From: a virus
IMG/VR virus record: IMGVR_UViG_3300049812_002840
Coordinates: 1 to 20,437 of that record
Length of the DNA: 20,437 nucleotides
Reading direction: 5' to 3' (one strand)
Shown piece after piece: positions 670-20,437 of this stretch; the stretch's first letter is position 1, and each line of letters starts with the position of its first letter. Made by a program: the position numbers and the translations under genes. The notes beneath the pieces were generated by a model. That model saw only the letters and a list, made by a program, of their open reading frames with translations. It was not told the origin of the DNA and made no database searches.

Positions 670-2361
670 ATGGAAGACGTAAAGGCGCTAGAACAAATAG
701 GCAAACTCACATCGCGTTTCACACGCACCTGTCCCAACACATCAATATATCAACAAAGACTTGCAGAAGAATTTGAGATCATTCTTGATCTCCGGTTCGT
801 AGAGTACTTCCTACAAATCCGTGATATTCTTGATCTTACTCAGGACATTCCACATATGACTCGTGGCTCTGCTGGTTCATCATTGGTGTGTTACCTTATG
901 GGTATAACTGACGTTGACCCCATCCAGTGGGATATTCCTGTGGCAAGATTTCTTAATCCTAAACGAGATGACTTACCTGATGTTGATATTGATTATCCAC
1001 ACTATCGACAAGAAGAAGTTATGAATCGTATATTTAAGAAATGGCCCGGACAGTCAGCGAGGATATCAAACTATGTCCTTTATCAAGACAAGTCAGCGAA
1101 ACGTGAAGCGGCAAAAAGACTCGGATACAAAGGAAGACTGCCCAGGAAATTTACCTATGAATCAATAGGAGTTGATCCCAAAGAGGCAAAACGTATAGAA
1201 TCAAAACTGAAAGGCAAAAAGAAATGTATATCAAAACACTGTGGAGGCATCTTAATGTTTACAAGGCAATTACCAAAATCTTTAATTTCTCAAACAAATC
1301 AAATACTACTGGACAAGAACGAGGTAGAAGATCTCGAACACCTCAAAGTAGACATCTTGGCCAATCGTGGACTGAGCCAGTTACTGGACATAGACTCGCA
1401 AACAAAGTTATACGAATATCCAGAGATAGACAAGGCTACTTCGTCTTTGTTGAGTCGGGGAGACGTGTTGGGAGTCACCCAGGGAGAATCGCCCGCGATG
1501 CGAAGACTGTTCCGAGCGATACGCCCTCAGTCAATGCTTGATTGTGTATTTGCCACAGCATTGATAAGACCTGTGGCACTGCAAGGAAGACGTAAAGCGG
1601 CCTTTTTTAGTGACTGGACAACTGACAGAGTTTCTGATGTTGTTGTGTGTGAAGATGATGCTATCGTGCAAATATCAAAACTCATAGGCTGTGATTTCTA
1701 CGAAGCAGATATGTATCGTAGAGCATTCGCTAAAAAAAATGAAGAGCGTGTGATGGAATTTATGACTAGACTTGGAGATCATCCTCGCAAAGACGAAGTG
1801 TTCAAATCTTTACAAAGCCTAAGTGGATTTGGTTTGTGCAGAGCTCATGCAGTAAACTTAGGCCGATTAATATGGGCATTAGCATATCAAAAAGCACACA
1901 ACCAAAAAGGTTTCTGGCAAGCGGCACTAAAACACTGTCATGGATCCTATAGGAGATGGGTATACAAGACAGAAGCAAAAAGAGTTGGATTAAATCCTGT
2001 GACTGTTAGTAAGTCTGACAGTTGGGATGATCCTGTATATCAATTTAAAAAATATGGTTGGTGGTCAGATAAAAAATTCTTACCAGGCTTCTATACCAAG
2101 CATCTCTATCTCGATCGTATCGAATTCGCCGGACTAGTCGCCAACGGCAGAGTATACAAATCGGGTGATAAAAAATATGTAACCTTTGTTACGCTTGGTA
2201 TTGATAATGGTTATTATGTTGATTTGAATATAAACAAACCATTTCCTTATTCTGATTATGATGTGATAAAAGGTATAGGAAGAATCAAACACCTAAATAA
2301 TTCTGATTACATTGAGGTGCTAGAGTGCAAGTCAATGAAGATCAATCAATTTTATGATTAA
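670..2361 (+). CDS. DnaE-like DNA polymerase III alpha subunit, PHP-less
   Basis: A 563-aa family C DNA polymerase-like protein, about half the length of bacterial DnaE. It lacks the N-terminal PHP domain and begins just before the conserved RGSAGSSLVCYL block (residues 65-76). The catalytic core is intact: PDVDIDY at 103-109 supplies two aspartates (D104, D106) and KVDIL at 226-230 supplies the third (D228). GVTQGES (268-274) and RAHAVNLGRLIWALAY (391-406) match the usual GVFQLES and SHAxxYxxxAY blocks. Residues about 475-555 resemble the DnaE OB-fold. It presumably synthesises DNA or acts as an accessory polymerase. Most T4-like phages use a family B polymerase (gp43), which is not in this window. 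The stop codon directly abuts that of convergent cytochrome b. A second, shorter DnaE-like gene lies at 10275-10838. Confidence 0.85.
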   Translation: MEDVKALEQIGKLTSRFTRTCPNTSIYQQRLAEEFEIILDLRFVEYFLQIRDILDLTQDIPHMTRGSAGSSLVCYLMGITDVDPIQWDIPVARFLNPKRDDLPDVDIDYPHYRQEEVMNRIFKKWPGQSARISNYVLYQDKSAKREAAKRLGYKGRLPRKFTYESIGVDPKEAKRIESKLKGKKKCISKHCGGILMFTRQLPKSLISQTNQILLDKNEVEDLEHLKVDILANRGLSQLLDIDSQTKLYEYPEIDKATSSLLSRGDVLGVTQGESPAMRRLFRAIRPQSMLDCVFATALIRPVALQGRRKAAFFSDWTTDRVSDVVVCEDDAIVQISKLIGCDFYEADMYRRAFAKKNEERVMEFMTRLGDHPRKDEVFKSLQSLSGFGLCRAHAVNLGRLIWALAYQKAHNQKGFWQAALKHCHGSYRRWVYKTEAKRVGLNPVTVSKSDSWDDPVYQFKKYGWWSDKKFLPGFYTKHLYLDRIEFAGLVANGRVYKSGDKKYVTFVTLGIDNGYYVDLNINKPFPYSDYDVIKGIGRIKHLNNSDYIEVLECKSMKINQFYD

Positions 2362-3612
2362 CTATTTCTTGTTACGTAGATGAATTGCGTCTGGAATAAG
2401 TTGTGGTTTCTCTAGCCAACCTACCACAGGTGCAAGTATTAGGAAGTACGCAAACCAGTATCCGGTTCCAATACGTCCTAGCAGTATCCAAAGACCTTCT
2501 GCCGGCATCGCTCCAACATACATTAACAAGAAGAAGTCTCCAACTAAGAACCACGTAAATTGTTTCCAAATTGGTCTGTAAATAGATGATCTAATCTTAC
2601 TTGTATCTAACCATGGTAGTAATGCCATAATACCTATTGCAGATACCATCGCTATGACACCGCCTAACTTATCTGGAATCGCTCTCAACACTGCGTACCA
2701 AGGTAAGAAATACCACTCAGGAACAATATGTGCTGGCGTCACAAGGGGGTTGGCTTCGATGTAGTTGTCCGGATGTCCTAATATATTTGGTACATACATC
2801 AGGAATAACATAAAGACTAATAAGAACACACAAAAAGCATACATATCTTTCATTGTAACATAAGGATGAAATGATACAGTATCACGTGTGTCCTTTGGTT
2901 CAACACCAACTGGATTGTTAGATCCTGTCATATGTAGTGCTATCACGTGAAACAATACTACACCAACAATTAGAAATGCAATTAACCAATGAAGTACAAA
3001 TGCTCGATTTAGGAATGCATCACCAACAGCATAATCTCCCCAAAGTAGAGTGACAATAGAATCTCCTATTAAAGGAATTGCACTGAATAGGCTTGTAATC
3101 ACAGTTGCTCCCCAATAACTCATTTGTCCCCAGGGAAGAACATAACCTAAAAATGCTGTGGCCATCATTAGGAAATAAATTATTATTCCCAATATCCACA
3201 TTAGTTGCCTAGGTTCTTTGTATGATCCAAAATAAAGTCCGCGGAACATATGCAAATACACAGCAATAAAAAAGAAAGATGCCAAATTCATATGGGCATA
3301 TCTGATAAGCCATCCACCATTGACATCTCTCATGATATGCTCGACACTGTCAAATGCTTCTGCCACACTAGGTTTGTAGTGCATACCTAAAACTAGTCCG
3401 GTTGCAATCAAACCTAATAAAGTGAATGTAAGTATAGCGCCAAAACTCCAAAAGTAATTTAGATTCTTAGGCACTTGAAAGTCCAAGTATTCGTGCTTGA
3501 ACATTCTAAAAATTGGTAATCTATTATCTAACCATCCCAGAGCACCTGTAAAAGGCGAGTTATTATCCTTTACTTTGTTGGTGTGGACTGGTTTGTAGTT
3601 TTTATCGTCCAT
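2362..3612 (-). CDS. petB: cytochrome b of the bc1 complex, full length
   Basis: A 416-aa integral membrane protein matching the cytochrome b subunit of ubiquinol:cytochrome c reductase (complex III), which oxidises quinol and drives the Q cycle. The b-heme histidine pairs are present with the classical 14-residue spacing: H107/H121 and H208/H222. The Qo-site PEWY motif is at 298-301, inside [17 protein letters not shown]. About eight hydrophobic segments are visible, so the fold looks complete with no frameshift. It resembles alphaproteobacterial and mitochondrial forms. In bacteria it normally sits between the Rieske protein and cytochrome c1; here neither neighbour is present. The gene upstream is a 43-aa orphan 16 bp away and the gene downstream is the convergent polymerase with zero spacing. 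Codon use resembles the phage-type neighbours. It may replace or supplement the host subunit, or have a regulatory role. Confidence 0.95.
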
Positions 3613-4487: not shown

Positions 4488-4555
4488 ATATACAAACCAA
4501 TGTAAAATGCTAGTATGAGAATTATTATCCAAAAAATTACACTGAACTTGTTCAT
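4484..4555 (-). CDS. 23-aa single-pass membrane microprotein
   Basis: A tiny gene between dnaB and the SGNH-like gene. Its ATG overlaps the dnaB stop as ATGA (4552-4555), and its own TGA overlaps the next start as ATGA (4484-4487). The peptide is a five-residue polar N-terminus (MNKFS) followed by about 18 hydrophobic residues, i.e. one transmembrane helix. Precise 4-bp coupling at both ends, the same arrangement as recognised genes in this window, is the main evidence that it is translated. The function is unknown; small phage membrane peptides can be host takeover or lysis-timing factors, but nothing here shows that. Confidence 0.6.
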   Translation of the reverse strand: MNKFSVIFWIIILILAFYIGLYI

Positions 4556-5967
4556 TTTTTGTTCATATTTTGTATAAGTTGTTTGATTTTACTTGATTCG
4601 ATGTTTGCTTTTACTTTGCCAATGTCATCACGTGGAGGTTCTTCCGACTTGTGTTCTTCTTTCGCTTCTGCTGTCACTGTGGATGTTCTTTTTAAGTTAG
4701 AATAAATTGACGGCGCTTGTTTTTTAAATGTTTGATATTCTTCATCTTCAGCCAAGTCTAGTATGCGTAATGTGTCGATGTTAAACTCTAAGTCCACTTT
4801 ATGACCAACACCGGAACTTGATCTTGTTTTCATAAACTGTATTTGATATTTGCCACGTTCTCTCATTGCACGTGATGTAAATATACCAATCACATTGTCT
4901 GCTGTTTGTATCTTGCTTAAACCACCGCTGATGTGCGAATGATCAAACTCAATCTCTTCTACACTTGCTCTGTTCAACTGCGATGCTGTGATCATTAAAC
5001 AGTTTGTATCAACCGCCAAGTTTCTTAGTTCTTCTGACACATATTTGTCCTTCACAAACAAGTCACTCGGAGATACTCTTTTGTTGATTGGCATCAGTAA
5101 ATCTAAGTAATCTATTAAAACTACATCACACTTTTTATTATTTTGTATTTCAAATTCTTTAATATAAGTTCTTATGTCTAAGGCAGTTGCTCCAGATGGA
5201 ATATACTTTATTCTAAGTTTACCAGATGCTTTCGCTTTCATTTTGACTTTAAGATCAACTGTGTCTAAGTCTTTGTAAATTTCTCTAGTTGGCGTCTCGG
5301 TCATCATAGCATCTATTCTCATTGCTGTAAGATTTTCACTTAATTCTAGTGTGATGTACACACAATTCAATCCTTGCTCTGCATAGTTCACTGCCAAATT
5401 CTGCAAGAACAAACTCTTACCAGCACCAGAACCACCTGCAAATATATTCAGTTCACCTCTATTAAACCCACCAAACAATTTTTTATCAAAGTTTTTCCAT
5501 CCAGTTGGAATCTGTCCGTTGTTATCTTTTAGTGCTTGTAATCTTGATTTTGGATCTTCAAAATAATCCAGACCCATATCTTTTGTAAGTCCAACTTGGA
5601 CTGCCTTCTTAATCTTCTCTTCTACAGAACCATATTCACCTTTTTCCAACATATCTGCAGATGCCAGTATGGCTGTTTCTAAAGACTTGTGTCTTGCAAA
5701 ACGTTCATACTCATCAAGAAACCAATCAAAGTGTTTAGGATCAATGTCAGCCGCAGATTGTAATTGTGCACCTGTTTTTGCATTTACCATTTCAACATCA
5801 GGCAATGTTTTATATTCATCGGCATATTCATAGATAAATTTTGCAGGCTCTCTTAGTTCTGCATCATAGTGCGAATATTTAAAAATGTTTTGTGCTCTCA
5901 CAAATGATTCTGCGTCTGCAAGAAACATTTCCAAAAATAATTTCTGTAAATCTTTAGTGTATTCCAC
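4552..5967 (-). CDS. replicative DNA helicase, DnaB/T4 gp41 family
   Basis: A 471-aa hexameric 5'-3' helicase that unwinds the fork and pairs with the primase encoded upstream. Residues 1-130 form a helical N-terminal domain typical of marine T4-like gp41 proteins. The RecA-type core has Walker A GGSGAGKS (178-185), Walker B VVLIDYLDL (282-290) and TASQLNR (328-334). The C-terminal tail is charged and probably flexible. The start is GTG at 5967, two bases after the speD stop, with no Shine-Dalgarno sequence but a sigma70-like promoter whose TATAAT ends exactly 6 nt upstream, predicting a leaderless message. The 3' end overlaps the 23-aa peptide gene as ATGA. Confidence 0.93.
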   Translation of the reverse strand: MEYTKDLQKLFLEMFLADAESFVRAQNIFKYSHYDAELREPAKFIYEYADEYKTLPDVEMVNAKTGAQLQSAADIDPKHFDWFLDEYERFARHKSLETAILASADMLEKGEYGSVEEKIKKAVQVGLTKDMGLDYFEDPKSRLQALKDNNGQIPTGWKNFDKKLFGGFNRGELNIFAGGSGAGKSLFLQNLAVNYAEQGLNCVYITLELSENLTAMRIDAMMTETPTREIYKDLDTVDLKVKMKAKASGKLRIKYIPSGATALDIRTYIKEFEIQNNKKCDVVLIDYLDLLMPINKRVSPSDLFVKDKYVSEELRNLAVDTNCLMITASQLNRASVEEIEFDHSHISGGLSKIQTADNVIGIFTSRAMRERGKYQIQFMKTRSSSGVGHKVDLEFNIDTLRILDLAEDEEYQTFKKQAPSIYSNLKRTSTVTAEAKEEHKSEEPPRDDIGKVKANIESSKIKQLIQNMNKK

Positions 5968-5969
5968 GT

Positions 5970-6368
5970 CTATATTATAACTTCTTTCTGTAAACTTGTC
6001 ATTTCAAAATTTACTTCTTTTAGTCCTGTCTCTCTATCAAGATACTTGTATTCAAGTTTTTCAATATCCCATTTTTCCAATGCATCGAATATCAATTCCT
6101 TTTCCAATTCACCGCAAGTGTATACATCTAATTGTACCAAATTTGGTTTTGGTTCGTCCCAAATGTGTAAGGCTACGTGTGATGTTTCTATTATTGCAAC
6201 ACAGGTTGTTCCTTTGTTACCAGGCATATTACAATATGTTGCGTATGGTCCTAGCATAACTTTCATTCCTATATCACGTATTAAGTTGTTTGTCCAATCT
6301 ATTATTGTTTGTTCGTGCTTTGGAATATTATGTAATTCTGCACGTACAATCAAATGTTTGTGTTTCAT
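5970..6368 (-). CDS. speD: S-adenosylmethionine decarboxylase-like protein (SpeD fold)
   Basis: A 132-aa pyruvoyl-type decarboxylase of the prokaryotic class 1b size. Family members self-cleave before a serine to make the pyruvoyl cofactor and decarboxylate AdoMet for spermidine synthesis. The serine/histidine motif is SHVALHIW with S63 and H68, the same positions as in the Thermotoga enzyme; YTCG supplies C85. The residue before S63 is Thr rather than the usual Glu, and WDEP replaces the common WPE, so substrate or processing may differ. SpeD-fold proteins in phages and bacteria are known to have changed substrate in some lineages. speD is a recurrent auxiliary gene in marine T4-like phages. 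GGGAG lies about 7 nt before the ATG, which also overlaps the sufE stop as ATGA. Confidence 0.85.
   Translation of the reverse strand: MKHKHLIVRAELHNIPKHEQTIIDWTNNLIRDIGMKVMLGPYATYCNMPGNKGTTCVAIIETSHVALHIWDEPKPNLVQLDVYTCGELEKELIFDALEKWDIEKLEYKYLDRETGLKEVNFEMTSLQKEVII
5974..6002 (-). promoter_or_regulatory. leaderless-type sigma70 promoter for dnaB
   Basis: Read on the minus strand: -35 ATGACA (5997-6002, five of six matches to TTGACA), 17-nt spacer, -10 TATAAT (5974-5979, perfect), then 6 nt to the GTG start of dnaB. Transcription would begin at or next to the start codon. It lies inside the 3' end of speD, so dnaB could be transcribed both from here and by readthrough from the primase promoter. 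Confidence 0.65.
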
Positions 6369-6796
6369 ATTTGCTCCCGTTGGTTTTTTACAAGTTGATC
6401 GAATCTACTAATAATTGTTGCAATTAAATTTCCTAAACCATTACGTCTTTGCTGAGAAAGTAATTCTACAATACCAAGTTCAAGAAAATCATCGCCGTTA
6501 ATTTCTTTACATTCTTCTATTGTACTGTCATTGAAACAATCACAAACTATGCTAGTGATACCTTTTGTTATCATTGCATCACTATCATATTCTACGTTTA
6601 CTTTATTATCTTCTACCATGACATCCACCCAGATTTGACTTATACATCCTGTCACTAATCTTTCTTTTATTCTTTTTTCAAAATCCATTGTAGTTTTATT
6701 TTTTGCAAGATCGATAAGGTAAACCAGTCTGTCTTGTCCTTCCAACAAAGATAAATTTTCACTCCACTCTTTGATACGTTTTTTAATTCGGTTCAT
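6365..6796 (-). CDS. sufE: SufE-like sulfur acceptor for Fe-S cluster assembly
   Basis: A 143-aa SufE-family protein, normal length. SufE takes persulfide sulfur from the cysteine desulfurase SufS and hands it to the SufBCD scaffold. The conserved block RLVTGCISQIWV (residues 47-58) places the acceptor cysteine at C51, the same position as in E. coli SufE. The family signatures YDSDAMITKGI (70-80) and LLSQQRRNGL near the C-terminus are present. It overlaps dam by 14 bp upstream and speD by 4 bp (ATGA) downstream, so it is translated as part of the primase-dam-sufE-speD run. No SufS or SufB is in the window, so it would work with host machinery. It belongs with Nfu and FdxA here as an Fe-S theme. 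Confidence 0.88.
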   Translation of the reverse strand: MNRIKKRIKEWSENLSLLEGQDRLVYLIDLAKNKTTMDFEKRIKERLVTGCISQIWVDVMVEDNKVNVEYDSDAMITKGITSIVCDCFNDSTIEECKEINGDDFLELGIVELLSQQRRNGLGNLIATIISRFDQLVKNQREQI

Positions 6797-7637
6797 AATT
6801 GTAAATCAGTAATTCTTTTCTTTCTTTTTGGTCTTGCATATATGTACCTGTGGATCTAAATGTGTATTTTAAGTCCCAAGACAAACAGTGATACGTTTTA
6901 TACAGTTCTATTGTATGTGGATTTGAATTATATGTTACCATAAAATTAGCCTGCCAACGATCAAGATTATCAATGTGATTTTTGAATTCGTCATGATCAA
7001 ATCCTTTATGCTGACTTCCGTCTTTACCATATAAGAATGATTTTATATCGTATGGCGGATCTAAAAAAATAAAGTCCTGTTCGTAATCAGGTTGCATATA
7101 AAAAGCATAATCCAAATTAGTAATGTTCCATAACTGTATTATATCTTGATAGATCGTTAATTTTTTGATGTTGTTCAAAGTAAAGTTTCCTTCGTATGCC
7201 TGTCGTGAAAATGAACTTGACTCTGACAGTCCACTAAATGAACATTTGTTAACAATGTAAAATGCTTTTGCTAATTCATAATCATCAGTGCTAGTTTGTA
7301 ATATTTTTTTACAGTCTTTGAATAATGATTTCTGATCATCAACACTATCCCAAGTGTTTTTCTTGATGTCTATCAATTCGTGCATTAATTCTTTACCACA
7401 TTTCTGTAGTTGTGTCCAAAAACACCATAAAGGTTTGTATGAATCATTCACAGTGATTAGTGCATTAGGATATGTCTGTGTGATGTACAGTGCCATTGAT
7501 CCGCCTCCTAGGAATGGTTCAGTGTATGATTGTATCACGGATGGCAGATACTTGTGTAAAAATTTAATTGCCCTACTTTTTCCTCCGGGATATCTTAACG
7601 GTGTTTTGTATCTTACTGGTTGGTAATCTTTCTTCAT
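6783..7637 (-). CDS. dam: DNA adenine methyltransferase, Dam/T4 Dam type
   Basis: A 284-aa class D12 N6-adenine DNA methyltransferase. The N-terminal YKTPLRYPGGKSR block and PFLGGGS (41-47) form the AdoMet-binding motif, and DPPY (193-196) is the catalytic motif. Length matches T4 and E. coli Dam. It probably methylates phage DNA, protecting it from host restriction or marking it. I chose ATG 7637 rather than the GTG at 7643 because the ATG overlaps the primase stop as ATGA. Downstream it overlaps sufE by 14 bp. The recognition sequence cannot be read from the motifs; GATC is the family default only. Confidence 0.9.
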   Translation of the reverse strand: MKKDYQPVRYKTPLRYPGGKSRAIKFLHKYLPSVIQSYTEPFLGGGSMALYITQTYPNALITVNDSYKPLWCFWTQLQKCGKELMHELIDIKKNTWDSVDDQKSLFKDCKKILQTSTDDYELAKAFYIVNKCSFSGLSESSSFSRQAYEGNFTLNNIKKLTIYQDIIQLWNITNLDYAFYMQPDYEQDFIFLDPPYDIKSFLYGKDGSQHKGFDHDEFKNHIDNLDRWQANFMVTYNSNPHTIELYKTYHCLSWDLKYTFRSTGTYMQDQKERKELLIYNYEPN

Positions 7638-8596
7638 AACCACAATTTTTCATTTAATTTAATTTTTGTTTTAGAGTCGTGTGTATGTTTGAGGATGGCT
7701 TGAATAGTCAGCATCTTGCCATATTTTAACACAGCATTATTGACATCTTTGATGCCTTTTTGCCATGGTGGCATAGATACTGACCATCCCCAATCACACG
7801 CCTGATCAATGAGTTTGCTTCCGGCTTTGTCACGATCGGGCACTATGATAACTTTTCGATTGAGTGATTCAATCTGTAATTTTTGTTTGTTGCTTATTTC
7901 ACTACCAAGTATTGCTACACCATCTATTGTTATGGCGTCAAATACTCCTTCGACTAATATTATAAATTTTTTTGACCAGTGTTGTTTGTCTAAGTTAAAC
8001 AGTGTACCTGGTTGTACTTGTGCGTAATATTTTGGTTTGGTATTAGGATCAATGGATCTTGCAACTTGTCCTATAAGTTTTTTATCCTTGTATATAGGAA
8101 CTAAAATTCTATTGTCTAATTTTTTAGATGTGTAAAACGGATAATCAATGTGCTTGATTCCTCTTGTGTTTAAATATTTTACATATCTTATATTATTTTC
8201 ATTTATGCGTACTGCATCATCTGGAAGGTTGAAACTATCAAAATTTATATCTACAGTTTGAATATTTTTGTTTGGAGATACTTCTTGTGCAAGTTTCATT
8301 GCAGACATTGATAGTTTACTGATTGTAGATTGATCTACATTTAACCATCTCAACAATTTTCTGAATCGATTACTTAGATATCTACCAGGAGTGAAGTTTG
8401 CTTTGTATCCACAATTGAAACAATGATATTGTATTGAGCCGTCACCAAGATACATAATACCACCTCTGCCTCTAGTGTCCTGTGTTTCGCCATTGTAATG
8501 ACAACAGGGTGCATTGAATGATGTCCAACCCGACGGAGTCTTCTTACGTTTGGGCGGGAGATGTGATTCGAGAGTATGTTGTAAATCCGGAAGCAT
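7634..8596 (-). CDS. DNA primase, zinc-finger plus TOPRIM (T4 gp61-like)
   Basis: A 320-aa primase that makes RNA primers for lagging-strand synthesis with the DnaB-family helicase. The N-terminal zinc ribbon is visible as CCH (31-33) and CFNC (59-62). The TOPRIM domain carries LVEGVFDAI (E216) and VPDRDKAG (D254, D256), the acidic metal-binding residues. It is the first gene of a coupled run leading to dam, sufE and speD. A perfect-consensus sigma70 promoter stops 6 nt before the ATG, leaving no room for a Shine-Dalgarno sequence, so the mRNA should be leaderless. No later Met start would keep the zinc ribbon, which supports this start. Confidence 0.92.
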   Translation of the reverse strand: MLPDLQHTLESHLPPKRKKTPSGWTSFNAPCCHYNGETQDTRGRGGIMYLGDGSIQYHCFNCGYKANFTPGRYLSNRFRKLLRWLNVDQSTISKLSMSAMKLAQEVSPNKNIQTVDINFDSFNLPDDAVRINENNIRYVKYLNTRGIKHIDYPFYTSKKLDNRILVPIYKDKKLIGQVARSIDPNTKPKYYAQVQPGTLFNLDKQHWSKKFIILVEGVFDAITIDGVAILGSEISNKQKLQIESLNRKVIIVPDRDKAGSKLIDQACDWGWSVSMPPWQKGIKDVNNAVLKYGKMLTIQAILKHTHDSKTKIKLNEKLWL

Positions 8597-8633: not shown

Positions 8634-9041
8634 CTAAAATGGGCCGTAAATGTTACTGAACAGTATAGTATAGATCAAATAACAGCCTGCGTGTAAACTT
8701 TGATCTACTGAAGTCAAAATCCAAAATTCTCTCATCGTGCTGGTATAACCATTTGCTTTTACAAAATTGTTTTTCAACCAATCAATGAAAAAATGCAATA
8801 CATAATCCAATAAACCAAATAAAATTATACTTGAAAAAACTGCCACACCTGCGTAAAAATAATATGCGGTGCTCAAGCATAAAAATACAAACGCTGTACC
8901 AAGTGCGTGATCCAATGCGTGTAGATGCCCATTCACTGATGTCAGTTTGTATTTGTCTTTTGGTCCTTTGAATCTTCCTTGTAGTGCAAAGTCACAGATG
9001 AAGTGCTTTACCAATAGGATAAAAAATATGTGTGGAAGCAT
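8634..9041 (-). CDS. DUF3307-like membrane protein
   Basis: A 135-aa protein with about four hydrophobic helices. It begins with the family's HxxxDFxLQ-type signature (HFICDFALQ) and later shows GHLHALDH, a second histidine/aspartate helix LHFFIDWLK and DQSLHAGCY, a pattern typical of DUF3307 membrane proteins, which are found in bacteria and marine phages. The histidines and aspartates within helices suggest metal binding or catalysis in the membrane, but the function is not established. The ATG overlaps the stop of the virion protein gene as TAATG, so the two are coupled, and it ends just before the primase promoter. Confidence 0.75.
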   Translation of the reverse strand: MLPHIFFILLVKHFICDFALQGRFKGPKDKYKLTSVNGHLHALDHALGTAFVFLCLSTAYYFYAGVAVFSSIILFGLLDYVLHFFIDWLKNNFVKANGYTSTMREFWILTSVDQSLHAGCYLIYTILFSNIYGPF

Positions 9042-9853
9042 TATGATCTATAAAGTATTTTTTCAACACTACCATCAAGTACGGTAGATGAATCACCTTC
9101 GTTCTGAACAACAACAAATGCCACTGCATTGTGTACTCCAGTAAAGTTAAAATATTTTATACCAGTAGCACTGCTATATGTTTGGCTTGTGATCTTATAA
9201 AATGATTCTTGTTCAGTGTCTGTCGCGTAACTCACATTAGGAGTCAGCGTACCATAGACGTGTATGTCACCTGTAAATCCATTTGTGTAAATTGCCGCAG
9301 TGTGCAAAGCGGTGTTTGAATTTTGATTTGCATTAGCAGTCACAGTGCTTGAGATATGTTTGCCATCTAAGTGTGTAAAAGTTGATAATTCAACACTGTC
9401 AGTCAATTCAGGAAATGTACCACCAACGACTTCAAATCTTAATGCGGCATCATATCTAGTGTCGGCGTAAACTAGTTGAGTAGTGCTTGAAGTATCTGTA
9501 TGTTTGATTGCTCCATGATAAAAACCAGTTTCTAGTGATAACATATCACTTTCAGTCAATGTAAATTTAATATGTCCTTTAGTAGATGTGCTTGAACCAT
9601 CATCAGAGATGGTGCCTAATTTTGTTAATCTCAATTTGTTTGCACTGTCACTTATTTGTAGTACAGTGCTGGTTCCATCGACAAATTGTGGCTTCTGATC
9701 CTGATTACGGATCACAAGTGTAAAGGTATTATCAACTTCTTTGTATAATTTGATAGATCTTTCGTACACTTTCTCGTATCTCCTTACAGTGCCTTCTGTG
9801 TGGATGTACACATCAACAAGGCTGGGTAGTATGTATCCAATGTTATATTGCAT
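9041..9853 (-). CDS. virion structural protein (marine T4-like type)
   Basis: A 270-aa beta-rich, Ser/Thr-rich protein. The N-terminal half follows a pattern I associate with structural proteins of T4-like marine phages: RSIKLYKEVDNTFTLVIRNQ, then a KFTLTESDMLSLETGFYHGA block and a final FEV strand. The second half (FTGDIHVYGTLTP onward) looks like a repeated beta domain for tail or baseplate attachment. I chose ATG 9853; an upstream TTG at 9898 would add 15 residues but would put the late-promoter-like AATAAATA inside the coding region. No Shine-Dalgarno sequence precedes either start. The exact position in the virion is not determined. Confidence 0.7.
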   Translation of the reverse strand: MQYNIGYILPSLVDVYIHTEGTVRRYEKVYERSIKLYKEVDNTFTLVIRNQDQKPQFVDGTSTVLQISDSANKLRLTKLGTISDDGSSTSTKGHIKFTLTESDMLSLETGFYHGAIKHTDTSSTTQLVYADTRYDAALRFEVVGGTFPELTDSVELSTFTHLDGKHISSTVTANANQNSNTALHTAAIYTNGFTGDIHVYGTLTPNVSYATDTEQESFYKITSQTYSSATGIKYFNFTGVHNAVAFVVVQNEGDSSTVLDGSVEKILYRS

Positions 9854-9864
9854 GGCATTTACAG

Positions 9865-9872
9865 TATTTATT
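9865..9872 (-). promoter_or_regulatory. candidate T4-like late promoter box AATAAATA
   Basis: Minus strand AATAAATACTG lies 11 nt upstream of the ATG at 9853. It matches the T4 late element TATAAATA in seven of eight positions and is followed by CT, as in many T4 late promoters. It precedes the one clear virion gene in the window, as expected for late control. Transcription would begin about 6 nt before the ATG, so the leader would be very short. Confidence 0.5.
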
Positions 9873-9920
9873 GTACCAGGAATATACTGAGTCAGCAATG
9901 AGTATGGTAATTATGTTTAA

Positions 9921-10295
9921 ATGACAGTTGATTTAAAAGATATTCAAACTTCTTATCCTTTTCTATCATTAATATCGGTGGTCAAACAAGAAATTGTAGG
10001 TATTATACAGAATTGTGATAATAAGGTTATGAGTATATACGTATTTGAATTATTGCCCAGCGATTTGAAATCTGCGTTCTTAGAATATGGTGCTAATTGG
10101 TGGTGGGAATCAAATCGTAAAATTCCAATTAATATCTTTATAGGTCAAGAGTTTTCCAAATTTAGGCCATTCCTTAGAACTTATTCAATGAAAGAAGTGA
10201 AAGTAGTTTTTGGTCCTGTTACTAGATTAAGTGATTTTGCCGAGAATAAAAGGATAAGACGCAAGACAGTTCAGTTAGTTAGAACTAGTAAGTAA
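9921..10295 (+). CDS. hypothetical protein on the plus strand, 124 aa
   Basis: I do not recognise this protein with confidence. It starts at ATG 9921, is divergent from the virion gene and overlaps the 3' end of the short DnaE-like gene by 21 bp tail to tail. No competing long frame exists on the other strand across 9921-10274, so it is a genuine gene rather than a shadow. The product has a hydrophobic start (SYPFLSLISVVKQEIVGI), a tryptophan cluster YGANWWWES and a basic C-terminus. It reads like a small soluble alpha/beta protein. It is the only plus-strand gene after 2361, so it needs its own promoter, which I could not identify. Confidence 0.7.
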   Translation: MTVDLKDIQTSYPFLSLISVVKQEIVGIIQNCDNKVMSIYVFELLPSDLKSAFLEYGANWWWESNRKIPINIFIGQEFSKFRPFLRTYSMKEVKVVFGPVTRLSDFAENKRIRRKTVQLVRTSK

Positions 10296-10838
10296 ATTCA
10301 TATGCACAATTACTGCCATTGCGTATGATGTGGCGTGTGCTTTTTTAAAATAGTATTGTCCATCTGTCGGCTTTACCCAAACTTCGTTGTTTATTTCTTC
10401 CCAAGTCTTAGATAATAAATGTCTTTTAGCAGGTCTGATAATTGCAAGACAACAAGCAATTTCTTCTAAACTCTTTGGTTTCAGTTTTGCAACTACATCA
10501 TAATGACCATTCAGATGAAATAATTGATCAACAAATTCTCTGTCTAAAAGTTTTTCCCATTTTGGTTCTGTTTGAATTAATTCTTGCAAGTGTTTCCTGG
10601 ATTTGACTTGTGAATATATGTTAACGTTTAACAAATCAAGTTTGAAGTATCCCAATGATTCTAATACTTTATAATCAATAGCAGACTGGTTAGTTTCTGG
10701 AATAGCAGGACATTCTGTAAAATATACTCCCGTGTTGTGTGATTTAGTTCCTTTGGAGTCTATTATACTTGCTTTGGTGTGAGACATTTCATCTAAGATC
10801 TTTTGTCTATCAGCAAAGTCAATATCTATATCAGGCAT
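10275..10838 (-). CDS. minimal DnaE-like polymerase III alpha protein, 187 aa
   Basis: A very short protein that nevertheless carries the family C polymerase catalytic signature in order: PDIDIDFADR (2-11, D3 and D5), HNTGVYF (34-40, like the HxCGVV block), KLDLLNV (66-72, D68, the third acidic position), a compact linker, AIIRPAK (132-138, like ALIRPGP) and FKKAHATSYAMAVIV (164-178, like the SHAxxYxxxAY block). The parts between the motifs are greatly shortened, and there is no PHP, OB or clamp-binding domain. Whether it polymerises DNA, partners the larger DnaE-like protein or acts otherwise is unknown. Its ATG overlaps the preceding 43-aa gene by 8 bp. Confidence 0.7.
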   Translation of the reverse strand: MPDIDIDFADRQKILDEMSHTKASIIDSKGTKSHNTGVYFTECPAIPETNQSAIDYKVLESLGYFKLDLLNVNIYSQVKSRKHLQELIQTEPKWEKLLDREFVDQLFHLNGHYDVVAKLKPKSLEEIACCLAIIRPAKRHLLSKTWEEINNEVWVKPTDGQYYFKKAHATSYAMAVIVHMNLLTSSN

Positions 10839-10962
10839 TTTTGTTTAATATATTTTTTAATTGTAGCATTAGTTTATGGAAGTGTTCAAGATCTTTTGGC
10901 TTATATTTTTTGTTATCATATTTTAACAAATCAATTAATGCTTCGTGTTTTGGATTTGCCAT
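10831..10962 (-). CDS. small hypothetical protein, 43 aa
   Basis: A Lys/His-rich soluble peptide beginning MANPKHEALIDLLKYDNKKY. I chose ATG 10962 over the ATG at 11013 because it overlaps the stop of the 38-aa membrane peptide gene as TAATG. Its 3' end overlaps the start of the short DnaE-like gene by 8 bp, so three genes (38 aa, 43 aa, DnaE-like) form one coupled unit. No known family is recognised. The predicted helices suggest a small helical adaptor, which is inference only. Confidence 0.6.
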   Translation of the reverse strand: MANPKHEALIDLLKYDNKKYKPKDLEHFHKLMLQLKNILNKNA

Positions 10963-11078
10963 TAAATTGCAAGTACCATTGACAAAATAATTATGAAAAG
11001 AATTGATAACCATACAACATTATCTTGTGTAATATCTTTTAGTAGTTGCCAAAATAAAATAAAAAAATCTCTAATCAT
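10962..11078 (-). CDS. 38-aa membrane microprotein with its own promoter
   Basis: A short gene beginning MIRDFFILFWQLLKD, with a polar centre and then a hydrophobic helix (VVWLSILFIIILSMVLAI) to the C-terminus. It has a strong sigma70-like promoter ending 6 nt before its ATG, and its stop overlaps the next ATG as TAATG. Those two features together make translation likely despite the size. It is the first gene of the unit that continues into the short DnaE-like protein. The function is unknown; the single transmembrane segment suggests an inner-membrane location. Confidence 0.6.
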   Translation of the reverse strand: MIRDFFILFWQLLKDITQDNVVWLSILFIIILSMVLAI

Positions 11079-12439: not shown

Positions 12440-12691
12440 TTATTCAGGTCTTGTATCAGATTGACCAGTTCGTTCTCTCCGCTGACGAAACTTTCTGTTC
12501 CATTTAACCGCCAATGCGTCCGGGGCTTCTGGAAATAAAAATGGGAATACGCCGTGAATAAAACCAACAACTGCAATGGCTAGTAACATCACAGTAGAAT
12601 ATAAGACCCAACTTAGATGTTGCCAATATGTTTCATCTACAGTCTTTAAGTGTCTCCAATCAAACACATATGGTATCACGGGTAGTTTCAT
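12440..12691 (-). CDS. DUF6356-like small membrane protein
   Basis: An 83-aa protein with an N-terminal amphipathic part (YWQHLSWVLYSTVMLLAIAVVGF) leading to one transmembrane helix and the signature IHGVFPFLFPEAP, which matches the IHAxFPFLF motif of DUF6356 proteins found in alphaproteobacteria and their phages. The C-terminus is basic and hydrophilic, probably cytoplasmic. The start codon overlaps the nth stop as ATGA (12688-12691). Function unknown; in bacteria such proteins are sometimes annotated as capsule-related, which I cannot support from sequence. Confidence 0.6.
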   Translation of the reverse strand: MKLPVIPYVFDWRHLKTVDETYWQHLSWVLYSTVMLLAIAVVGFIHGVFPFLFPEAPDALAVKWNRKFRQRRERTGQSDTRPE

Positions 12692-13368
12692 TGTTTTACA
12701 ACCTCTCTTAATTTTGATTTCGGAATATCTACGTTTCTCTTGTCACATACTTTGGTAATAATACAAGTATCACAATCAGGATTTCGTGAAACACACCATT
12801 TCTTTGCGTGTGTGATTAACCACATATGTGCTCCATATTTGTACTTGCTTGGTGTGGTGTCATTTACAGTAATGGATGCCTTGCCTTCGTCCAAACTATC
12901 TGCCCAACCCAATCGCCACAACAATCTAAACACGTGAGTATCTACTGCAATATGTGGTTCGCCAAACACAAAACGCATAACAATATCTGAACTTTTACGT
13001 CCTACACCTGGCAACGTCATTAGTTCTTTTTGGGTCTGTGGCACTTTACCACCAAATTCCTCTAACAACATTTTACTTGTAGCAAGTATATTCTTCGACT
13101 TTGCGTTGTGCAATCCAGCAGGTCGTATTGCTTCTATAACTTCTTGTTGTGATAGTTTGATCATTTCTTCTGGAGTATCTGCTAATGAAAATAATTGATT
13201 GCAGGCTATCGCAGTTCTTTTATCTTGGCTTTGTGCTGACAGCATCACACCAATTAAACTAGTATACGCCTTGCTGTAAATTTTTGATTTGGGTTTTTTA
13301 TTTGAATAATAGTGATATTTTGAAGCAAGTTTTTCGTATATGTAATCTATTTCAAAAACGTTCTTCAT
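12688..13368 (-). CDS. nth: endonuclease III, DNA glycosylase/AP lyase
   Basis: A 226-aa HhH-GPD base-excision enzyme that removes oxidised pyrimidines and nicks at AP sites. The helix-hairpin-helix LPGVGRKSSDIV (119-130) contains the Schiff-base lysine K125, and AVDTH (141-145) contains catalytic D143. The C-terminal [4Fe-4S] cluster ligands are complete: C192, C199, C202 and C208 in the C-x6-C-x2-C-x5-C pattern. Everything needed for activity is present and the length is normal. A Shine-Dalgarno-like AAAGG precedes the ATG. It overlaps the MBD4-like glycosylase gene by 17 bp upstream and the DUF6356-like gene by 4 bp downstream. The Fe-S cluster ties it to the SufE/Nfu theme. Confidence 0.95.
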   Translation of the reverse strand: MKNVFEIDYIYEKLASKYHYYSNKKPKSKIYSKAYTSLIGVMLSAQSQDKRTAIACNQLFSLADTPEEMIKLSQQEVIEAIRPAGLHNAKSKNILATSKMLLEEFGGKVPQTQKELMTLPGVGRKSSDIVMRFVFGEPHIAVDTHVFRLLWRLGWADSLDEGKASITVNDTTPSKYKYGAHMWLITHAKKWCVSRNPDCDTCIITKVCDKRNVDIPKSKLREVVKQ

Positions 13369-13759
13369 AGTGACCTTTCCATTCTTCTATGTATCTTCTT
13401 AATTCTTTGTCCTGCACGTTACTAGGTACTTCATTCTTATAAAATATTTTATAACTGTCACTACCATATTTGCCAATGCCGTGCAAGTCAGATGCATCTT
13501 TGTAGTCCCAAGTCAAAAACTGTTCGCTCATCTTTCTAATTCTTTTTGCTCTTACACTCCACATACCTAATGGCTTTAACATTTTTTCTTGTGTCTTAAG
13601 TCTTCCACGTAGATATGCTTTTGGATTTGGATACCTTCTAAATAATTTAGGTAGTACTTCTTTTACCTGTTTTCGATATGTTTGGTTAAGACACATAACC
13701 CCAACCATATGTTGCCATACAGTTTTTACTTGCTGTTGTACCATCAAGTCCTCCCGCAT
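13352..13759 (-). CDS. MBD4-like HhH-GPD DNA glycosylase
   Basis: A 135-aa protein matching the catalytic C-terminal domain of MBD4 (a thymine/uracil mismatch glycosylase). KPLGMWSVRAKRI (62-74) corresponds to the PLGLYxxRA block, and LHGIGKYGSDSYKIF (92-106) is almost identical to the MBD4 LHGIGKYGNDSYRIF hairpin. D117 in NVQDKEL occupies the position of the catalytic aspartate. The usual N-terminal methyl-CpG-binding domain is absent, as in prokaryotic members. There is no Fe-S cysteine cluster, so it differs from the adjacent Nth. Expected substrates are T or U opposite G, or modified pyrimidines such as 5-hydroxymethyluracil. It is coupled by TAATG to the upstream membrane gene and overlaps nth by 17 bp. 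Confidence 0.85.
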   Translation of the reverse strand: MREDLMVQQQVKTVWQHMVGVMCLNQTYRKQVKEVLPKLFRRYPNPKAYLRGRLKTQEKMLKPLGMWSVRAKRIRKMSEQFLTWDYKDASDLHGIGKYGSDSYKIFYKNEVPSNVQDKELRRYIEEWKGHYEERF

Positions 13760-14052
13760 TATTTTGTCCCTTCAATTTTAGTTTCGTACTTTGTTTTGAA
13801 GTAATCGTGTGTTACATAAGAAGCAGTAACAAAGCCTGCCACAAATATTAAAATGTAAATCAAAGTTGTTTTTAGATTTTTAATTAATCCACCTTTGCCT
13901 TTGTTCTTTTTATATGCTTTCCACATCCACCAAAAACCGGCAATGGTTAATACAACACTGATTACAATTACCCAAGGATTGTTTGCTATACTGGCACCTG
14001 CGGCACCAAATATCAAAAACAACAATCCGTTAATATAACAAGCCGGACACAT
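13759..14052 (-). CDS. small membrane protein with N-terminal CPAC, 97 aa
   Basis: The protein starts [16 protein letters not shown], so a CxxC pair sits at the membrane entry of the first helix. Two more hydrophobic helices follow (PWVIVISVVLTIAGFWWMW and LIYILIFVAGFVTASYV), separated by a lysine-rich loop. The CxxC could bind metal or be redox active; this is inference. Its ATG overlaps the sdhA stop and its stop overlaps the MBD4-like start, both as TAATG. The position directly after sdhA raises the question of a substitute membrane anchor, but it lacks the heme-ligand histidine pattern of SdhC/SdhD. Family not recognised. Confidence 0.7.
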   Translation of the reverse strand: MCPACYINGLLFLIFGAAGASIANNPWVIVISVVLTIAGFWWMWKAYKKNKGKGGLIKNLKTTLIYILIFVAGFVTASYVTHDYFKTKYETKIEGTK

Positions 14053-15830
14053 TAATATATTCTCGCTTTAGGTGGAACTGGTTCCATTTCATCAGTCAAA
14101 GTTTGAAGTGACACTGCTCTATAACCAATCCTACTGTTATGCCCGCCTGCCCAAGCCATGGTGTGCTTCATCCAATTTTTGTCATCACGTTCTGGATAAT
14201 CATCTCTTGAATGTGCGCCTCTTGATTCTGTTCTTGAATAAGCAGATTTCAAAGTTACCTGTGCTTGTAGCAAAAGATTTTCAAGTTCCATTGCTTCAGT
14301 TAGATCTAAATTAAAAATCATTCCATCTTCTTTGACCACCCCTTGTCTAAAGTCTTCTAATGGTTTTTCAATTTCATTCATACCAACACTAATGTTTTCA
14401 CCTGTCCTAAACACCGCGGCTCTTGTTTGCATAATGTCTTGCATTCTTTCTCTAACATCTGCTAGGTTTACATCTGATCTTTTTGTGTGTATCTCATCTA
14501 TTCTTTCTAATGCTTTGTCGACTGCTTCTTGTGTTGACTCTTGTACTTCGCCATTTGGTTCTAAAATATCTGAGCATCTATTTGCGGCCGCTTTGCCAAA
14601 CACCACTAAATCTATTAATGAGTTCGAACCTAACCTGTTTGCACCATGAACACTTACACAGGCCGCTTCACCAATGGCCATTAACCCTGGAACAGTTTTT
14701 ACTTTTTCATTGTCATCAAGTGTTACTACTTCAGCATTAAGATTTGTTGGTATACCACCCATATTGTAATGAACTGTTGGCACAATGTTTATTGGTTCTT
14801 TTCTAACATCAACATTACCAAACTTTTTTGCTTCTTCTACAATACCTGGCAGTCTTTCCATTAATATTTTTTCATCTAGGTGCATCAAGTTTAGATGTAT
14901 GTAATCTTTGTTAGGTCCACAACCTCTGCCTTCATTTATTTCTACAGTAATTGCTCTTGAAACGACATCTCTTGATGCAAGGTCTTTGGCGTTGGGAGCA
15001 TATCTCTCCATGAATCTTTCGCCTTCTGAATTAGTTAAGTATCCACCTTCACCTCTGGCACCTTCAGTGATTAAACAACCAACACCATATATACCTGATG
15101 GGTGAAATTGTACGAACTCCATATCTTGCATAGGTAGTCCTGCTCTTAATATCATACCGCCGCCATCACCTGTGCAAGTGTGAGCTGACGTGGCACTTTT
15201 ATAAACTTTACCATACCCACCTGTTGCTAACACAGTCATATTAGCGTCAAACTGATGTATCTCACCTGTCTCTAAACAAATAGAAAGTGAACCTGTACAC
15301 TTGCCGTTGTCCATTAATAAGTCTGTAGTAAAGTATTCATCAAAGAACTTAATGTCTTTGGATTGGCATTGTCCATACAATGTGTGTAGTATGGCGTGTC
15401 CGGTTCTATCAGCCGCGGCACACGTTCTTTGTACAATACCTTCTCCATAGTTGGATGTCATACCCCCAAATGGTCTTTGATAAATTTTACCATCTTGTGT
15501 CCTACTGAATGGGACACCATAGTGTTCTAATTCTATTACAGCATCTTTGGCATTCTTACATAGATATTCAACTGCATCTTGATCTGCTAACCAATCGCCA
15601 CCTTTGATTGTGTCATAGGCGTGCCATCTCCAATCATCTTCACCCATATTTCCTAGTGCGGCTGATATACCGCCTTGTGCGGCAACTGTGTGACTTCTCA
15701 TTGGATATATTTTAGACACAACAGCAGTCTTCAAACCTTTTTCGACCATGCCAAGTGCGGCACGAAGTCCAGAGCCTCCTCCACCTATTACAACTACATC
15801 GAATTTATGTTTGTGTGCTACTTCTTTCAT
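14052..15830 (-). CDS. sdhA: succinate dehydrogenase flavoprotein subunit
   Basis: A 592-aa full-length SdhA, which oxidises succinate to fumarate in the TCA cycle and feeds electrons through SdhB into the quinone pool (complex II). The FAD-binding [10 protein letters not shown] is at 12-21 and the covalent-FAD histidine is H47 in [10 protein letters not shown]. Active-site residues fall at H243 (FHPSG), R287, H354 (VHYNMGG) and R399 ([10 protein letters not shown]), nearly the E. coli numbering, so the enzyme looks fully functional. The start ATG 15830 overlaps the upstream reductase stop as ATGA; a TTG at 15842 is less likely. sdhB, sdhC and sdhD are absent here, so it would have to use host subunits or ones encoded elsewhere. 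It resembles alphaproteobacterial SdhA. Confidence 0.97.
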
Positions 15831-16471
15831 TTCCAAAACCAATTTATCTTTTCCTTCTTGTTAGGATTCAAACTCCTAGCAAGTTTTCTTACTCTACCCA
15901 TATGTTTATCAAAATCTTTTTTTTCCATTCCTGGTAGTACTGAATAGAAACGTATGTATCTTGTAACCATACCACCTAGATTGAACACTGCTTTTTTTAT
16001 CCTTCTGTAAGGAATATTATCAAACAAACTAAAATTTACATAGGTAACCATAGGTCCACCATACGTGATTGATATTAATCCTAACTTGCCATTCATTGCA
16101 CCTGGTACAGGATAACCGTAGTTCTTAAAATATTTGCTACCTGGCACCAATGCCCTGTAACTGAAAAACCATTTAGGGTGCAACACCCAATCAACCCAGT
16201 TTTCTAATATACTAGGCATCCTCAAGTTATGGCACGAACCAATGAGAAACATCACATCACTGTTCTCTAATCTTTTCCTATAATCCAAAACTAGTTTGGG
16301 TGGTGGATTAATTGTTGCATTGTAAAATGGCAACTGTTCTTTTTCTTCAAATAAATTAATTAAATCTATTTCATGGCCGTGTTTAGTTGCTTCGTCAATA
16401 AATGTATCTCTAATAGCCGCATTGAAACTATCTTTTGTATTGTGGTGGCCAAATACTATACAAATTTTCAT
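15827..16471 (-). CDS. NAD(P)H dehydrogenase (quinone)-like flavodoxin-fold protein
   Basis: A 214-aa protein of the NQO1/MdaB/KefF-type flavodoxin fold. [20 protein letters not shown] is the FMN/FAD phosphate-binding start, and the region [20 protein letters not shown] matches the family's KxWxDxV plus aromatic active-site segment, followed by [13 protein letters not shown]. Members transfer two electrons from NAD(P)H to quinones. I chose ATG 16471, which puts the flavin loop at the N-terminus and lies 4 bp after the Nfu stop; an upstream frame extension to 16579 runs through the Nfu gene and is rejected. It overlaps sdhA by ATGA. The substrate is not determined; it fits the quinone theme. 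Confidence 0.82.
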
Positions 16472-16475
16472 AATA

Positions 16476-16829
16476 TTATTCTTGATTGTTGTCCTTTGGT
16501 TCATTTGTTTCATCCCACACAGCATAACCTCTACCATCATTTCTTGGTTTGTAGTAGGGGTCATTAAAGTTTGGATCATCTACTCCCTCGACGGATTTTA
16601 CTTCTGGAATGTAATGCTTCAACATATTTTCAATACCCATTTTTAAAGTTGCGGCACTACTGGCACATCCTGAACAAGAGCCACTCATTAGCATTGTAAC
16701 TATTCCGCTATCTTTATCGAAACTTTCTAATTTCACAATGCCACCGTGATGCTGTACAGCAGGCATTATTTGTTTTTCTATTATGTCTTTTATATTATCT
16801 TCTATTTCTTTTTGTGTTCTATCAGTCAT
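16476..16829 (-). CDS. NifU-like (Nfu) Fe-S scaffold protein
   Basis: A 117-aa protein containing a complete NifU C-terminal (Nfu) domain: HHGGIVKLESFD (27-38), then GIVTMLMSGSCSGCASS (42-58) with the cluster-binding CxxC at C52 and C55, then TLKMGIENMLKHYIPEV. Nfu proteins carry [4Fe-4S] clusters to client enzymes. The 35-residue C-terminal tail is charged and unlike standard Nfu. The N-terminal A-type or degenerate domain seen in many bacterial Nfu proteins is missing, as in short alphaproteobacterial or phage forms. It lies just upstream of the quinone-reductase and sdhA genes and probably services Fe-S enzymes with SufE. Confidence 0.9.
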   Translation of the reverse strand: MTDRTQKEIEDNIKDIIEKQIMPAVQHHGGIVKLESFDKDSGIVTMLMSGSCSGCASSAATLKMGIENMLKHYIPEVKSVEGVDDPNFNDPYYKPRNDGRGYAVWDETNEPKDNNQE

Positions 16830-17680: not shown

Positions 17681-17881
17681 TTATAATCCGTTGTTTATTT
17701 TTAGTAACATATAGAAAGAAAAATCAGTTATCATAAACCAAAGAAACATTGTCAGCATTGAAGGTATAAAACCAAATAATACTATTGTAAAGAAAAATAG
17801 CAACCAGAAATTCCAAAGCAATTTTTTAAAATATTCTCGGACAAACTTTGCTGGTACTGTGTAAAACAAATATTCCGTCAT
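17681..17881 (-). CDS. small membrane protein, 66 aa
   Basis: Two hydrophobic helices: [20 protein letters not shown] and [20 protein letters not shown], preceded by a basic amphipathic segment [10 protein letters not shown]. The ATG overlaps the fdxA stop as ATGA, and a Shine-Dalgarno-like AGGAAA lies directly upstream. It would be an inner-membrane hairpin. Coupling to ferredoxin suggests coexpression, but there is no sequence sign of electron transfer. Family not recognised. Confidence 0.6.
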
Positions 17882-18207
17882 TTTCCTTTAAAATGCTTTT
17901 CAAATCTTTCGTCAGCATCTTCTCCTGAGTATTTCTCATAATCCGGTAATGGATCTTTTTGTTCTGTTATCACAGGCCAAACAGCAGAGTATTTTGTATT
18001 CACTTCAAGCCACTTACCATCTTTATCTTCTGCATCAGTGATTATTGCATCTTCCGGACATTCTGGTTCACACACACCACAATCAATACATTCATCTGGA
18101 TTTATCACCAGCATATTTTCACCTTCGTAGAAACAATCTACAGGACAGACAGACACACAGGTCGTATGTTTACACATCACACATTTTGAATTTACTAGGT
18201 ATGTCAT
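17878..18207 (-). CDS. fdxA: 7Fe ferredoxin ([3Fe-4S][4Fe-4S])
   Basis: A 109-aa seven-iron ferredoxin of the Azotobacter FdI/FdxA type, a low-potential soluble electron carrier. All nine cysteines of the family are present: C9, C12, C17, C21, C25, C40, C43, C46 and C50, each one residue later than in A. vinelandii FdI. By homology C9, C17 and C50 hold the 3Fe cluster and C21, C40, C43 and C46 the 4Fe cluster. The C-terminal region ([17 protein letters not shown]) matches alphaproteobacterial FdxA. The ATG overlaps the clamp-loader-like stop as TAATG and the 3' end overlaps the 66-aa gene as ATGA. Its electron partner is not identified. Confidence 0.96.
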
Positions 18208-19967: not shown

Positions 19968-20437
19968 AATTATCTAACTCCTTTAGATTATTTAAAAGTT
20001 TACGGAAAACTTCTGGAGTCAACATATTAGGACCATCTGATGGAGCGTTATCTGGATCGTTATGGACTTCTAAAAATACGCCGGCGATTCCTATAGATAC
20101 TGCGGCTCTACACAATGGTTCAACAAATGACCTATCACCACCTGATGACGTTCCCATTCCACCTGGTTGTTGTACTGAATGTGTACCATCCATAATCACA
20201 GGATAATGTTCACGCATTGAATGAATACCTCTCATATCAACTACTAAATTATTGTAACCAAAAGTTGTTCCTCTTTCTGTGATTAAGAAATTTTTATTTG
20301 TGGGGCATTTGTCTTTGATGTTTGCAACTTCTTTGAATGATAAAAATTGGCCTTTTTTGACATTGACCCATTTTCCTGTTTCACCTGCGGCAACAATCAA
20401 ATCTGTTTGCCTACATAAGAAAGCAGGTATTTGTATT
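19948..20437 (-). CDS. kdsA: 3-deoxy-8-phosphooctulonate synthase, 5' end cut by window edge
   Basis: The C-terminal part (about 162 residues) of KDO-8-phosphate synthase, which condenses PEP and arabinose 5-phosphate to make the KDO precursor of lipopolysaccharide. The frame is open to the right edge; its first codons read IQIPAFLCRQTDLIVAAGET, matching the IQLPAFLARQTDL block of E. coli KdsA. Further motifs are NVKKGQF, ERGTTFGYNNLVVDMR, MDGTHSVQQPGG and the C-terminal LEVHNDPDNAPSDGPNML. The N-terminal region that distinguishes metal-dependent from metal-independent enzymes is outside the window. It overlaps the SGNH-like gene by 20 bp. In a phage it would support surface-polysaccharide remodelling of a Gram-negative host. 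Confidence 0.95.
   Translation of the reverse strand, partial: IQIPAFLCRQTDLIVAAGETGKWVNVKKGQFLSFKEVANIKDKCPTNKNFLITERGTTFGYNNLVVDMRGIHSMREHYPVIMDGTHSVQQPGGMGTSSGGDRSFVEPLCRAAVSIGIAGVFLEVHNDPDNAPSDGPNMLTPEVFRKLLNNLKELDNCVKQKL

Follow-up and report, generated by a model that had tools for sequence, protein, structure and literature searches.

The open reading frame located at positions 10275..10838, on the minus strand, of the 20,437-nucleotide stretch of viral DNA analysed here (the window) encodes a protein of 187 aa, and it is well supported that this protein is the back half of a small DNA polymerase of the bacterial type, made as two proteins in giant tailed phages, not a new miniature polymerase. 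It is referred to below as the C-half of a split minimal DNA polymerase III alpha. Its family, its fold and its split nature are practically certain, being drawn from a match to PHROG 11778, an AlphaFold2 model, structural matches and conservation. The complete two-chain explanation, i.e., that the C-half and a separately encoded N-half constitute a phage-specific split minimal DNA polymerase III alpha, has in our estimation a probability of about 0.7. An enzyme of this kind is already known: the split minimal Pol III alpha of group 2.2 jumbo phages was described by Iyer et al. 2021 (PMC7824862), who proposed that one active enzyme is made from two chains. As judged from its sequence and predicted structure, the 187-aa protein joins that enzyme.

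The reading frame is initiated by ATG and runs over 187 codons with no interruption. The five motifs pointed out in the initial annotation are found in the protein and are arranged in DnaE order: PDIDIDF (residues 2-8), HNTGVYF (34-40), KLDLL (66-70), AIIRPAK (132-138) and KAHATSYAMA (166-175). The Pfam scan gives a fingers match alone, with a sub-threshold E-value (0.012), and the protein is thus overlooked by a plain domain scan. PHROG 11778 (annotated as DNA polymerase) matches residues 3-185 with an E-value of 3.7e-64, and a profile search of the PDB returns Pol III alpha chains only (best E 0.0054). By tblastn, 63 phage records match the 187-aa protein across at least 80% of its length; the majority of them are jumbo phages, Alishewanella phage Slicko01 being smaller (141 kb). 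Related stretches number more than 500 in viral contigs.

Conservation was counted over 120 distinct full-length C-halves. The aspartates D3, D5 and D7 of the P-D-x-D-x-D motif (10818..10832, minus strand), aligned with PDIDIDF of Mtb DnaE1, are kept in 118/118 distinct C-halves covering the motif. D68 of the KxD motif (10635..10637, minus strand), aligned with VKFDF of E. coli, is kept in 120/120, as are H34, G37, K66, W94, P121, R135, P136 and H168. Arg135 and Pro136 belong to the fingers motif R135-P136-A137-K138 (10425..10436, minus strand), comparable to FRPGP of DnaE, in which K138 is kept in 119 of the 120 sequences. D3 and D5 align with E. coli D401 and D403, and D68 with D555, i.e., with residues that we take to be catalytic. 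The aspartates are conserved in every C-half homologue examined. The dN/dS of the gene versus its relatives ranges from 0.07 to 0.21 (pairs with unsaturated dS), i.e., the gene is under purifying selection. With a length of about 1/6 of that of bacterial DnaE, it could be read as a decaying, functionless DnaE fragment. However, all 120 distinct sequences are intact and their active-site residues do not vary, the dN/dS is low and the gene order is fixed across phages of different hosts; this reading, already refuted by the conservation, keeps a negligible probability.

The AlphaFold2 model of the 187-aa protein, built with a 65-sequence alignment, has a pLDDT of 94.6 and a pTM of 0.85. The 13 best PDB chains obtained with Foldseek are all Pol III alpha or PolC. 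With VIA-align, 179-186 of the 187 residues are aligned to 15 Pol III/PolC entries (Z 6.2-9.6); every chain with Z of at least 6 is Pol III alpha or PolC, and the best unrelated chain has a Z of 3.6. The matched ranges are continuous: 461-836 of 3e0d from Thermus (Z 9.6), 971-1294 of PolC 3f2c (Z 9.5) and 400-779 of E. coli 4jom (Z 8.7). In sequence, the DxDxD, KxD, fingers and KxHxxxY blocks are collinear with M. tuberculosis DnaE1. The predicted model keeps the Pol III/PolC palm, in agreement with the DnaE-like nature first attributed to the protein. Neither of the two results named in the initial annotation as refuting it (a model with no palm fold, homologues devoid of the aspartates) was obtained.

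Palm and fingers take up all 187 aa, and the C-half has no PHP, OB, beta-binding or tau-binding domain. DxDxD and HxxG are separated by 26 residues vs. about 100 in DnaE; thus the thumb is absent from the C-half. The fingers have about 115 residues vs. about 350 in DnaE, i.e., about one third (the limits used for thumb and fingers being those we assume for the E. coli DnaE domains). The GRGS nucleotide-binding loop is absent from the chain because the latter starts at PDIDIDF, downstream of the loop in DnaE. The supposed collapse of the intervening domains is therefore correct for the thumb and the fingers; the part of the palm bearing the GS loop has not collapsed but is coded by a separate gene. 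Likewise, the set of acidic residues is complete, as had been claimed, all the aspartates being there, but the active site is incomplete because the GRGS loop sits in the separate N-half protein. The proposal of a smallest family C polymerase outline does not hold for a self-contained enzyme, since this loop is supplied by another chain.

The N-half family is PHROG 11127 (171 positions, for a protein of about 175 aa), with the GRGS loop near its end. Its relatives terminate in "GxGRGSSxxSYxLYLIGxHxVDSIKYxLDxxEFLK", and GxGRGS is present in 140/140 distinct N-halves. The N-half profile matches residues 214-392 of E. coli DnaE (E 2.6e-7), so that N-half and C-half tile DnaE end to end. The split point corresponds to the loop after the "...FLN" segment, directly before the "PDxDxDF" of ordinary DnaE. 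All nine phage genomes with a C-half that were examined (9/9) also carry one N-half, located 11 to about 220 kb apart, and a family B polymerase is present in the same nine genomes as well as in a syntenic 236-kb contig (G035). Reciprocally, the C-half is also found on 6/7 of the N-half contigs longer than 190 kb. Mirror-tree comparison of N-half and C-half distances leads to r = 0.92 (16 pairs, from genomes with both; Mantel p 0.0002). As expected, this correlation of sequence distances would fit joint (plain vertical) inheritance, and it is by itself no proof of contact. Among the roles suggested by the initial annotation for the 187-aa protein, that of a partner is the right one: its counterpart is the separate N-half, which supplies the GRGS loop and with which it covers DnaE.

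The gene neighbourhoods of the two halves differ. In the window, the stop of a small ORF of 60 aa (10831..11013, minus strand) overlaps the start of the C-half; a short ORF overlaps or abuts this start in several phages and translational coupling of the 60-aa ORF with the C-half is possible. A convergent small gene of PHROG 11637 (9921..10295, plus strand, E 3e-35) is a constant neighbour of the C-half, being present at 92/104 loci with sequence there. A virion structural-type protein (9041..9898, minus strand, weak match to PHROG 14467) is encoded between the C-half and the primase, and such a gene occupies the equivalent place in Phosso, PA5oct, RaK2 and GAP32. The DnaG/gp61-type primase (Toprim; 7634..8596, minus strand, PHROG 47, E 7e-43) and the DnaB/gp41-type replicative helicase (4552..5967, minus strand, PHROG 19, E 4e-76) come next; primase and DnaB are downstream of the C-half in 39/39 loci with at least 6.5 kb there. 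An exonuclease gene (PF00929) is located about 2 kb from the C-half in XacN1 and RAS14. In RaK2, PA5oct, Atu_ph07 and Phosso, genes for a GroES-like protein and an RFC clamp loader follow directly after the N-half (the clamp loader of PA5oct and Phosso being assigned from its position or its AAA-ATPase label). The same order, i.e., N-half, then GroES-like gene and RFC-type clamp loader, is observed in 41 of the 47 viral contigs inspected. The reverse search places an N-half at 65/65 clamp-loader loci for which 4 kb or more of upstream sequence is available, in a set biased to one sequence-space neighbourhood. One half being in a primase-helicase cluster and the other in a clamp-loader cluster, a replication role of the pair is likely.

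In the mechanism proposed, the C-half would give D3, D5 and D68, the palm aspartates that bind metal, together with the shortened fingers, while the separately encoded N-half (PHROG 11127) would give helices and the GRGS loop holding the dNTP triphosphate. Both chains would assemble non-covalently, leading to one palm-fingers active site. Physical assembly and catalysis by the pair are probable. An efficient replicase is doubtful because there is no thumb and there are no clamp- or tau-binding parts. As the PHP, thumb, OB, beta- and tau-binding parts are lost, the pair may synthesise short tracts at the replication fork in a phage with a family B main replicase, with primer extension, gap filling and bypass as candidate tasks.

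Two other functions of the pair were considered. In the first one, the polymerase fold is kept but catalysis is slight or absent, and the pair serves the replisome as a structural or regulatory subunit, e.g., by linking clamp loader and helicase-primase. The loss of the thumb, OB and clamp-binding parts, the family B replicase found in all nine phage genomes and the location of the genes in the clamp-loader and helicase-primase clusters are consistent with it. This is nevertheless rather unlikely, since the aspartates, KxD, IRPxK, HxxxY and the GRGS of the N-half are essentially invariant and would be unneeded in a scaffold. In the second one, the pair is a nucleotidyltransferase with a Pol beta-like site, using another substrate (terminal transferase, RNA or protein nucleotidylation). 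The Pol beta-like fold is used by many transferases, and the thumb to hold a primer-template duplex is missing here. The fingers motifs are, however, conserved, the best structural matches are specifically Pol III/PolC polymerases and replication genes surround the C-half, which makes a transferase improbable.

The window encodes a second family C protein, i.e., a PHP-less single-chain Pol III alpha of 563 aa (670..2361, plus strand) with palm, thumb, fingers and a C-terminal OB-like domain, as assigned from Pfam, AlphaFold2 and structural matches. Pfam gives PF07733 (E 2.6e-41) and PF17657 (E 2.9e-14), and the GSAGSS, PDVDIDY, KVD and fingers motifs are found in one chain, without PHP. Its AlphaFold2 model (pLDDT 79.5) has a Z up to 31.7 to Pol III, and residues 480-563 match SSB/OB folds in the predicted structure. 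The 563-aa protein was rejected as the missing half because GS loop, DxDxD, KxD and fingers are all present in its own chain. The initial annotation was thus correct in stating that the 187-aa protein is not the missing half of this larger protein, which is a complete single chain.

A 563-type gene is located just past DnaB in 6/23 C-half loci with sequence there, and most phages with a C-half have no such gene. A 484-kb metagenomic phage (LR756508.1:47382-49079, L195) encodes a 38% identical single-chain minimal Pol III and neither split half. It was rejected as a natural fusion of the halves: it belongs to another lineage, its DnaB is 25% identical and it has no PHROG 11637. Since its distribution is patchy and it also occurs without either half, the 563-aa protein is most readily understood as a separate accessory polymerase. 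In one locus (L006:10900-11196, minus strand) only the last 99 residues of a 563-type polymerase are left, the C-half being intact; this remnant looks either like a decaying copy or like a leftover OB-like domain.

Alternatively, the 187-aa protein could serve the 563-aa polymerase specifically, as its partner or regulator, or it could borrow the N-terminal palm of that chain in place of an N-half. The two genes are within about 10 kb, the 563 type accompanies the C-half at the six loci mentioned above and no contig was found with both a standalone N-half and a 563 gene. On the other hand, the 563-type gene is absent from most C-half phages, L006 keeps an intact C-half beside a 99-aa tail, LR756508 has the 563 type without either half, and contigs sharing the rare accessory genes of the window hold the N-half. 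Such a specific partnership is thus very improbable.

The co-occurrence has to be read with the coverage of the contigs. The search for an N-half in the 20-kb window gives the 563-aa chain as sole match, because the window stops short of the region where the N-half would lie. No N-half is seen in the longest 563-bearing relatives, whose contigs map away from that region. The 563-bearing contigs map to 144-236 kb of G035, where the N-half is at 6 kb; in other words, their coverage is limited to the C-half side of the G035 plan and does not reach the side with the N-half and PolB. A loss of the N-half in 563-bearing phages is not claimed, their missing PolB being the same coverage gap, and G035 without a 563 gene is uninformative since it ends 3.8 kb past the C-half. 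The contigs that share the rare accessory genes of the window (SdhA, 91%; cytochrome b, 80-87%; FMN-reductase-like, 91%) carry the N-half. The N-half is therefore expected in this phage, and we infer its presence in this particular genome. There is a very slight chance that, in this marine clade, the standalone N-half has been lost and the C-half now pairs with the N-terminal palm of the 563-aa chain instead. If so, a family C enzyme of hybrid make-up would work in one phage alongside a family B replicase.

Several other genes were noticed in the window. An intact cytochrome b gene (416 aa, 2362-3612, minus strand) lies as an insertion between the gene for the 563-aa polymerase and the phage gene that follows it; at that junction it is absent in L127 and L128 and present at 100% in L126. 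Relatives of this cytochrome b occur at 26 viral loci, several beside phage genes. Their neighbours are DnaB and a 563-type polymerase (L490/L491), N-half and clamp loader (L480), RNR and tail spike (L496) or a C-half contig (L484). Cytochrome b looks like a recurrent phage-borne respiratory gene. A full-length succinate dehydrogenase flavoprotein (SdhA, 596 aa, 14052-15842, minus strand) is above the TIGR01816 cut-off; just one other viral contig with SdhA was found (L498, 73.6 kb, 91% identical), and it has a split-polymerase N-half. The respiratory genes are accompanied by an iron-sulphur set, i.e., SufE-like (6365-6796), NfuA-like (16476-16829) and FdxA ferredoxin (17878-18207), all on the minus strand. 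Endonuclease III and an overlapping protein of 135 aa, which is like its first half only, are encoded at 12688-13368 and 13352-13759 (minus strand). KdsA (3-deoxy-8-phosphooctulonate synthase; 19948-20437, minus strand) is apparently truncated by the end of the window, and in marine contigs genes related to it often lie near the C-half.

The comparison with known systems leads to the following points: (i) as in the group 2.2 split Pol III alpha, there is a standalone C-unit with the metal-binding aspartates and the template-binding (fingers) part, and relatives have a separate, distant N-unit and a family B polymerase; this match rests on the description of the C-unit in PMC7824862 and not on an accession. 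In contrast with that system, the marine clade also has the single-chain 563-aa Pol III, and the partner half is outside the window; (ii) like bacterial DnaE/PolC, the C-half has palm aspartates of the D401/D403/D555 type, the same order of fingers and one continuous matching stretch (400-779 in E. coli), whereas it has no GS loop, thumb, PHP, OB or beta-/tau-binding part, its fingers are about 1/3 in length and the enzyme is in two chains; (iii) the PHP-less single-chain phage polymerases (phage PA5, Streptomyces phages and the 563-aa protein) have the same catalytic motifs as the C-half but combine the GS loop, the aspartates, the thumb and the fingers in a single chain. Atu_ph07, named as group 2.2 in PMC7824862, carries both PHROG 11778 and PHROG 11127. 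In a later paper on Sinorhizobium phage AP-J-162, two subunits of DNA polymerase III are listed that resemble the ones in Atu_ph07 (PMC11242549). No experimental test of polymerase activity was found, the literature search for experiments with the split enzyme having led to the 2021 paper alone.

The 2021 proposal can be tested directly, given the precise point of the split, the residues that do not vary on either side of it, the gene context and the many diverse pairs that occur naturally. Moreover, the split pair is common in marine viral contigs, and it is set apart from a nearby single-chain Pol III that could pass for its partner. If its active site is indeed put together from the products of two unlinked genes, such a polymerase would be a rare case of an enzyme split in nature, and it would offer a simple model of how family C polymerases were built up.
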